Source of the DNA: Cryomorphaceae bacterium
GTDB lineage: Bacteria > Bacteroidota > Bacteroidia > Flavobacteriales > Schleiferiaceae
Assembly: GCA_007116495.1 (NCBI GenBank)
Contig: SKIJ01000101.1
Coordinates: 1-33,971 of the forward strand
Direction: 5' to 3'
Length of the DNA: 33,971 bases
In this document: one piece after another, positions 25,961 to 26,333 of the stretch
How positions within the stretch are numbered: the first letter of the stretch is position 1
How the letters are laid out: each line of letters opens with the position of its first letter
Program-made: the position numbers and the translations under genes
The notes under the pieces: generated by a model
Seen by the model: the letters and a program-made list of their open reading frames with translations, nothing else
Told to the model about the DNA's origin: nothing
Database searches by the model: none

Positions 25961-25999
25961 AAAAAAAGGCCAAACAGCACAATGCTGTTTGACCTTTTT
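25961..25999 (-). terminator. Terminator of tRNA-Pro
   Basis: A near-perfect 16-bp stem with one G-T pair (core CAAACAGCA / TGCTGTTTG) and a 3-nt loop is followed by seven T's on the minus strand, starting 5 bp past the tRNA-Pro 3' end. On the plus strand it also ends in a T-run. Confidence 0.88.
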
Positions 26000-26003
26000 A
26001 AAG

Positions 26004-26076
26004 TCGGGGTGACTGGACTCGAACCAGCGACCCCCTGGTCCCAAACCAGGTGCGCTACCAACTGCGCCACACCCCG
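26004..26076 (-). tRNA. tRNA-Pro (anticodon TGG)
   Basis: The gene is 73 nt. The acceptor stem is CGGGGTG/CACCCCG, the D arm GCGC...GCGC, and the anticodon stem CCTGG/CCAGG with loop TTTGGGA, giving anticodon TGG. The T arm is GCTGG-TTCGAGT-CCAGT and the discriminator is A. CCA is not encoded. Confidence 0.95.
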
Positions 26077-26121: not shown

Positions 26122-26207
26122 TGCGGTGAGAGGGGGATTACCTCCCTTCGGTCGGTGAGCTCCACTTCGTTCCGGTTCGAACCCCGGGTTCTCATCCCCC
26201 TCTCACC
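26122..26207. repeat. Palindromic element derived from the tRNA-Ser 3' end
   Basis: An 18-bp stretch at 26122-26139 is identical, in the same orientation, to the 3' end of the neighbouring tRNA-Ser (26244-26261). A 14-bp arm at 26194-26207 is its perfect inverted copy. Just inside the right arm, GGGTTCTCATCCCCC resembles a T arm with two changes from the tRNA-Ser sequence. The centre contains the 10-bp palindrome GGTTCGAACC (26174-26183). The whole does not fold as a tRNA because there is no anticodon arm. It could be an attachment-site scar, a small tRNA-derived repeat, or a processing or termination structure. Confidence 0.65.
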
Positions 26208-26245
26208 TTTTCGGTGCTATGCAATTTCAAATAACAAAATTACTG

Positions 26246-26333
26246 CGGTGAGAGGGGGATTCGAACCCCCGGTACGATGTTATCGTACGGCAGTTTAGCA
26301 AACTGCTGGTTTAAGCCACTCACCCATCTCACC
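26246..26333 (-). tRNA. tRNA-Ser (anticodon GCT)
   Basis: The gene is 88 nt with a long variable arm, as expected for a class II tRNA. The acceptor stem is GGTGAGA/TCTCACC, the anticodon stem GCAGT/ACTGC with loop TTGCTAA, giving anticodon GCT for AGC/AGU codons. The variable arm is GTACGAT...ATCGTAC. The T arm is GGGGG-TTCGAAT-CCCCC and the discriminator is G. CCA is not encoded. Confidence 0.95.

Follow-up and report, generated by a model that had tools for sequence, protein, structure and literature searches.

An RtT-like element, probably an RNA module, with a copied tRNA-Ser 3' end in a Bacteroidota tRNA operon

RtT is an old and barely studied RNA of Escherichia coli (Rfam RF00391), found downstream of tRNA genes. 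The tyrT locus (L269) reads tRNA-Tyr, RtT, tRNA-Tyr and then RtT three times over, and at serX (L396) tRNA-Ser is followed by an RtT array. Every unit at these two loci ends in the 3' end of its own neighbour tRNA. The E. coli cores vary in presence, with the Tyr core seen in 4683 and the Ser core in 3331 of 5426 genomes. A section of PMC4986893, citing Bosl and Kersten 1991, reports that E. coli RtT is freed from tRNA transcripts and tied to the stringent response. The same section describes RtT sRNAs, detected by Northern blot, beside tRNA-Asn and tRNA-Lys of Actinobacillus pleuropneumoniae. These resemble the element reported here as a tRNA-associated RtT family, although they are gammaproteobacterial; the comparison is with the published description.

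The window, meaning the whole stretch of DNA that was analysed, comprises 33,971 nt from a Cryomorphaceae bacterium (assembly GCA_007116495.1, contig SKIJ01000101.1). Its Pfam matches include Por_Secre_tail and DUF5686, which we take to be Bacteroidota families. ARAGORN placed tRNA-Ser(GCT) at 26245–26333 and tRNA-Pro(TGG) at 26003–26076, both on the minus strand. In transcript order, tRNA-Ser is followed by a 39-nt spacer, an element of 84 nt, a 47-nt spacer and tRNA-Pro; these lengths were counted from slightly different ends than those given by ARAGORN, between which the Ser–Pro spacer measures 168 nt. Judged by gene layout, the element lies inside the Ser–Pro tRNA transcription unit. No terminator-like site was listed on the minus strand between the two tRNA genes, and an intrinsic-terminator-like site is located past tRNA-Pro (25963–25999, minus strand). 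A first-pass annotation had read the plus strand only; the tRNA-operon setting and the resemblance to RtT RNA appear on the minus strand.

The element (26124–26207, minus strand) runs from the left arm of a helix, P1, through the copied discriminator base, as defined by repeat matching, folding and the Rfam RtT alignment. All three repeats listed by the first-pass annotation were recovered. The sequence TGCGGTGAGAGGGGGATT occurs at 26122–26139 and 26244–26261 (18/18 nt identical, offset 122), ATCCCCCTCTCACC at 26194–26207 is the exact inverse complement of 26125–26138 (14/14 nt), and a 10-nt palindrome without strand, GGTTCGAACC, occupies 26174–26183. The proposed tRNA origin also held, the 18 nt being the 3' end of tRNA-Ser. 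The 18-mer begins precisely at the T-loop position that we take to be A58, a junction seen again in relatives.

Read on the minus strand, the element consists of an inverted T-arm (GATGAGAACC), a T-arm (GGTTCGA), a structured core and a copy of the tRNA that begins at T-loop A58 and runs to its 3' end. The left arm of P1 (5' strand; 26194–26207, minus) is the complement of the acceptor 3' strand and T-stem 3' strand of tRNA-Ser. The right arm (26125–26138) is included in the copied tail, AATCCCCCTCTCACCGCA (26122–26139, minus). The 14 bp of P1 presumably correspond to a 7-bp acceptor and a 5-bp T-stem plus 2 bp, with the structured insert replacing the T-loop. Inverted T-arm and T-arm face each other in the P2 hairpin GAACC-CGG-GGTTC (26179–26191, minus), which is present in 17 of 17 units of A3. 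The core (26138–26175, minus; match to model R1 at 26132–26181) is common to a dispersed repeat family of the genus. It contains a mini-hairpin, AC-GAA-GT (26164–26170, minus), with a GNA loop in most family members, and a hairpin with covarying pairs, ACC-GA-CC-GAA-GG-GA-GGT (26140–26156, minus). The folded element was more stable than its shuffles by 4.9 sd on the minus and 3.9 sd on the plus strand, and none of 200 shuffles was as stable.

Rfam RtT aligned with the element on the minus strand across all 130 positions in a permissive search (32.0 bits), with an E value of 0.0078 when 17 kb was searched and of 1.5e-4 for 321 bp. The bit score does not reach the RF00391 gathering cut-off of 45 bits, and the element is therefore RtT-like and not filed as a family member. 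Letters common to the two are GGATGAGAACC, GGTTCGA, CGAAG, CCGAAGG, GAGG and TAATCC followed by the tRNA end. As in E. coli, the element sits in a tRNA operon downstream of a same-strand tRNA gene, and shares the succession of inverted arm, GATGAGAA(C/G)C, GGTTCGA, structured core and tail from A58 to the tRNA 3' end (18 nt here). The inverted arm pairs with the tail in P1 and is accompanied by the GAACC/GGTTC hairpin, P2. The element differs from E. coli RtT in length (84 versus ~130 nt), in its full 14-bp P1 (versus 8–10 bp), in its core and in phylum. It also stands as a single copy in the window, followed by another tRNA gene; tandem arrays may or may not be a defining trait of RtT, and elsewhere we found an array-like chimera in a second species of the genus (G001) and arrays in G022 and the f32 genomes. 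No RtT match at E ≤ 1 was obtained for the copy in a third species (G002), and the strict filters of the 395-genome RF00391 survey described below missed the window copy itself. Sub-threshold Rfam matches to Plastid-psbl-rps4, sX4, mir-4484 and others were rejected as tRNA-derived or chance. The Bacteroidota and E. coli units may share descent or may have been built convergently from T-arms: the common letters are largely those of the T-arm, and two genomes (G214 and G352) hold a different core within the same frame.

A DNA search with the spacer matched three of 60 genomes, the window's own (G000) and G001 and G002 of the same genus. The first-pass annotation had called for a search of related genomes, and the whole element, arms included, indeed occurs at the identical place in these two further species. 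G002 carries the same unit in the same Ser–Pro operon. In G001, two contig ends carry the unit together with a chimera, a near-complete tRNA-Ser with the core in its T-loop, and the contigs end there. In two other members of the genus, G003 and G004, tRNA-Ser and tRNA-Pro are adjacent and the element is absent. With spacers of 15 nt (G003), 11 nt (G004) and 168 nt (window), the anticipated variation between the tRNA genes is borne out. As three members have the unit and two do not, it is an insertion polymorphism within the genus. Element sequences of G000 and G002 are identical at 78 of 84 positions, and both spacers at ~62%. Four of the six differences form two compensated pairs (53/67 and 58/62), one (41) is the N of the GNA loop and one (36) is unpaired. 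In the G001 copy one P1 pair is broken and the core hairpin has lost one base, so this copy may be decaying where extra copies exist.

Identity with the tRNA starts at A58 in every free-start locus, the exceptions being a unit whose C run is shorter and cross-comparisons to non-adjacent tRNAs. The tracking of tails by P1 arms was tested on 25 units, 20 of them distinct after dropping duplicates, with shifts of up to 2 allowed and tails shuffled among units. Arms and tails paired at 177 of 200 positions against a shuffled mean of 165.7 (sd 1.9), with 0 of 5000 shuffles as high. In a MAFFT alignment, P1 was 99.2% and P2 96.0% paired (97.7% together; 0 of 500 shuffles as high), and pairing fell to 33–74% when the partner was slid by 1–3 columns. 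Kinship between units inflates these tests and most tails are Ser, so the number of independent hosts behind the arm tracking is limited.

We conclude that the tRNA operon probably includes the element as an RtT-like RNA module, which would fold on a helix resembling a tRNA acceptor/T-stem and be excised during tRNA processing. The co-transcript would fold so that P1 imitates the acceptor/T-stem helix, and tRNA-maturation nucleases would cut at the ends of P1. By analogy with reported E. coli RtT, a small RNA of ~84 nt would be released. Homologous recombination at the T-arm seam (GGTTCGA) and across the tail would duplicate and convert units, which would thereby retain the local tRNA tail; the chimeric tRNA-Ser copy in G001 could be a product of such recombination. 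The core belongs to a structured repeat family that has spread outside tRNA loci of the genus as well. The element itself is real, structured and polymorphic. No report of RtT in Bacteroidota was found in the open-access papers searched.

RF00391 was searched over 395 genomes of the phylum. Matches at E ≤ 10 were obtained in 40 and matches at the 45-bit cut-off in none, so RF00391 at its cut-off would not name such units. Among 14 control genomes, E. coli alone matched. Thirty loci were fetched and tail copies were tested in the first 11. Ten of these best 11 loci lie beside a tRNA gene (nine Ser, one Arg), with the tail copied in 10 of 10, and one has no tRNA; the remaining 19 fetched loci comprise two with a tRNA-Pro gene and 17 without a tRNA. 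The loose pattern GATGAGAACC...TAATC matched 51 of the 395 genomes, nearly all by chance, and judged by eye only the window and G238 were RtT-like. In G238, located by this pattern search, tRNA-Arg(CCG) is followed by a unit that ends in a tRNA-Arg tail (RtT 29.7 bits).

Model R2, built from 17 units, matched 34 of the 395 genomes at E ≤ 0.5. Its match to the element (26126–26207, minus strand) scored 56.9 bits, with the element sequence itself in the model. Thirty loci of the 34 matching genomes were tested for tail copies. An exact copy of at least 12 nt from the tail of a tRNA at the locus was present in 22 of 30, compared with 1 of 27 control tRNA loci, and 13 of the 22 tail-copy genomes had not been used in building R2. 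The sole control match (L057) is in G022, itself a carrier. Exact copies were lacking at L449, L451, L452, L454, L457, L458, L460 and L461. Two of these are at contig edges (L449, with tRNA-Ser present, and L454), L452 has a diverged tail, and L458 has tRNA-Cys and a tail carrying an extra T. The left arm, GATGAGAAGC and the tail junction are kept around an unrelated core in G214 (L455) and G352 (L459). G022, of the window's family, has a single unit beside tRNA-Ser(TGA); beside tRNA-Ser(GGA) it has two units and a third that is truncated. All have a nearly identical core, and each has the local tail and spacer. The plan extends to tRNA-Ser, tRNA-Arg and, less exactly, tRNA-Cys in Bacteroidota, and to tRNA-Tyr and tRNA-Ser in E. 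coli.

We propose, tentatively and with real doubt, that RtT-like units may form a cross-phylum class of RNA modules living off tRNA genes. The core would enter a tRNA copy at T-loop 57/58, take over the host 3' end and carry or rebuild the complementary arm, giving an acceptor/T-stem mimic with a foreign loop whatever the host. Spread would take place both in tandem and from one tRNA locus to another, and the core would also have escaped, in the genus of the window, as a dispersed repeat. If architecture, junction and co-adapting arm hold beside tRNA-Ser, tRNA-Arg, tRNA-Cys and tRNA-Tyr in Bacteroidota and Gammaproteobacteria, RtT would belong to a wider class built on tRNA ends as a platform. 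Comparisons among carriers, relatives with empty sites and host tRNAs could then test what it does. Such a class would also explain many unannotated tRNA-end repeats that resemble att scars.

The core also occurs as a dispersed repeat. Allowing up to 3 mismatches, the pattern GNAGCTCANCGACCGAAGGGAG is present 5, 6, 12, 0 and 0 times in G000–G004, counts that include tRNA-locus copies (1 in G000, 2 in G001, 1 in G002), and a reversed control gave 0 in all. Model R1 found 5, 4 and 19 matches in G000, G001 and G002 at E ≤ 0.1, and four further genomes among the 60 had one weak match each (E 0.02–0.06). RNAalifold returned a core hairpin in which one pair occurs as A-U, U-A and C-G, and in the family alignment 97.6% of cells were paired (0 of 500 shuffles as high). 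Dispersed core copies sit outside tRNA loci, and the core can therefore exist without a role in a tRNA unit. The first-pass idea of other copies in the genome was half right: the core (~38 bp) is dispersed, but the whole palindromic unit has not spread. The unit might be a functionless by-product, a tandem tRNA-Ser duplicate that decayed after a dispersed repeat landed in its T-loop, with the palindrome made by template switching. The dispersed family fits such an origin, as do the G001 chimera of almost a whole tRNA-Ser with the core in its T-loop, the absence of the element from G003 and G004, and the dispensability of E. coli units (Tyr core in 4683/5426 and Ser core in 3331/5426 genomes). 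However, the element was kept at 78 of 84 nt between G000 and G002 while the spacers fell to ~62%, with two compensated pairs, and the same architecture is found in other families and in E. coli. We regard a by-product as unlikely.

The processed module was also weighed against a mobile single-stranded-DNA repeat, REP- or MITE-like, whose hairpins would be transposase signals and for which the tRNA T-loop would be one target. The core resembles REP/BIME elements as a small structured repeat dispersed between genes, with covarying hairpins. In a section of PMC2965389, enterobacterial attenuator candidates similar to rtT are assigned to BIMEs. Copies between heptamers read GAA^[core]^T, matching TTCGAA^TCC of the tRNA; the support is weak, as these letters also belong to the conserved core. 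Dispersed intergenic palindromic copies exist for the core only, and here the core lies inside a unit with a tRNA tail. Against mobility, the Y1 (RAYT) transposase PF01797 had 0 matches in G000 (94% complete), G001 and G002 (88% complete), and a plain REP/RAYT element was rejected on this absence from three carriers. A clean empty site for the dispersed copy G000:C28 (L021) was not found; in G001, G002 and G004 the two flanks match separate contigs, and the copy sits at a break in gene order. Mobility also leaves the tRNA arms and tails unexplained. A free-standing tRNA-derived repeat, as in the first-pass annotation, is not the best explanation of the whole unit, and we think a mobile REP- or MITE-like origin improbable.

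Integrases use the T-loop-to-3'-end sublocation of tRNA genes, and the direct repeat spans it here. Even so, the attachment scar first suggested, left at tRNA-Ser by an integrative element since lost, is extremely improbable and was rejected. Att sites do not have the inverted arm, P2 or conserved core, tandem arrays on the same plan stand beside many different tRNAs in two phyla, the observations require no larger element, and empty sites differ by only ~150 bp, which is unit plus spacers with no integrated element, remnant or trace of other genes. The earlier remark that the symmetry exceeds a simple att duplication stands, with an inverted arm that tracks the host tRNA.

Most G002 core copies and several in G000 and G001 are held in heptamer arrays. 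Copies at L012, L016, L028, L033 and elsewhere are intergenic, within 7-bp repeat arrays (AATGTAG/AATGTAA, AATTGAG/AATTAAG), for which the TAACTGA heptamers in a section of PMC4679880 offer a comparison. The exact core 22-mer was found in two records only of the species-genome collection, both Saprospira grandis (L034, L035), where it lies away from tRNA genes at a conserved position, with GA-rich hairpin repeats after it. At L057 in G022, after tRNA-Pro(TGG) at 1692–1769, copies of the tRNA-Pro tail lie downstream of another short insert (CAGGATCACGAAGTAAC...), which may represent a second type of tail repeat. The element had no match in the phage collection, and the pattern GATGAGAACC...TAATC gave nothing convincing among the viral-contig matches listed (3 passed, one being the window's own locus). 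Among the matches listed for GATGAGAASC...GGTTCG were prophage contigs with RtT arrays. Four IMG/VR contigs (L283, L300, L358 and L362) carry tandem RtT-like arrays with tRNA-Ser-like tails and no detected tRNA gene.
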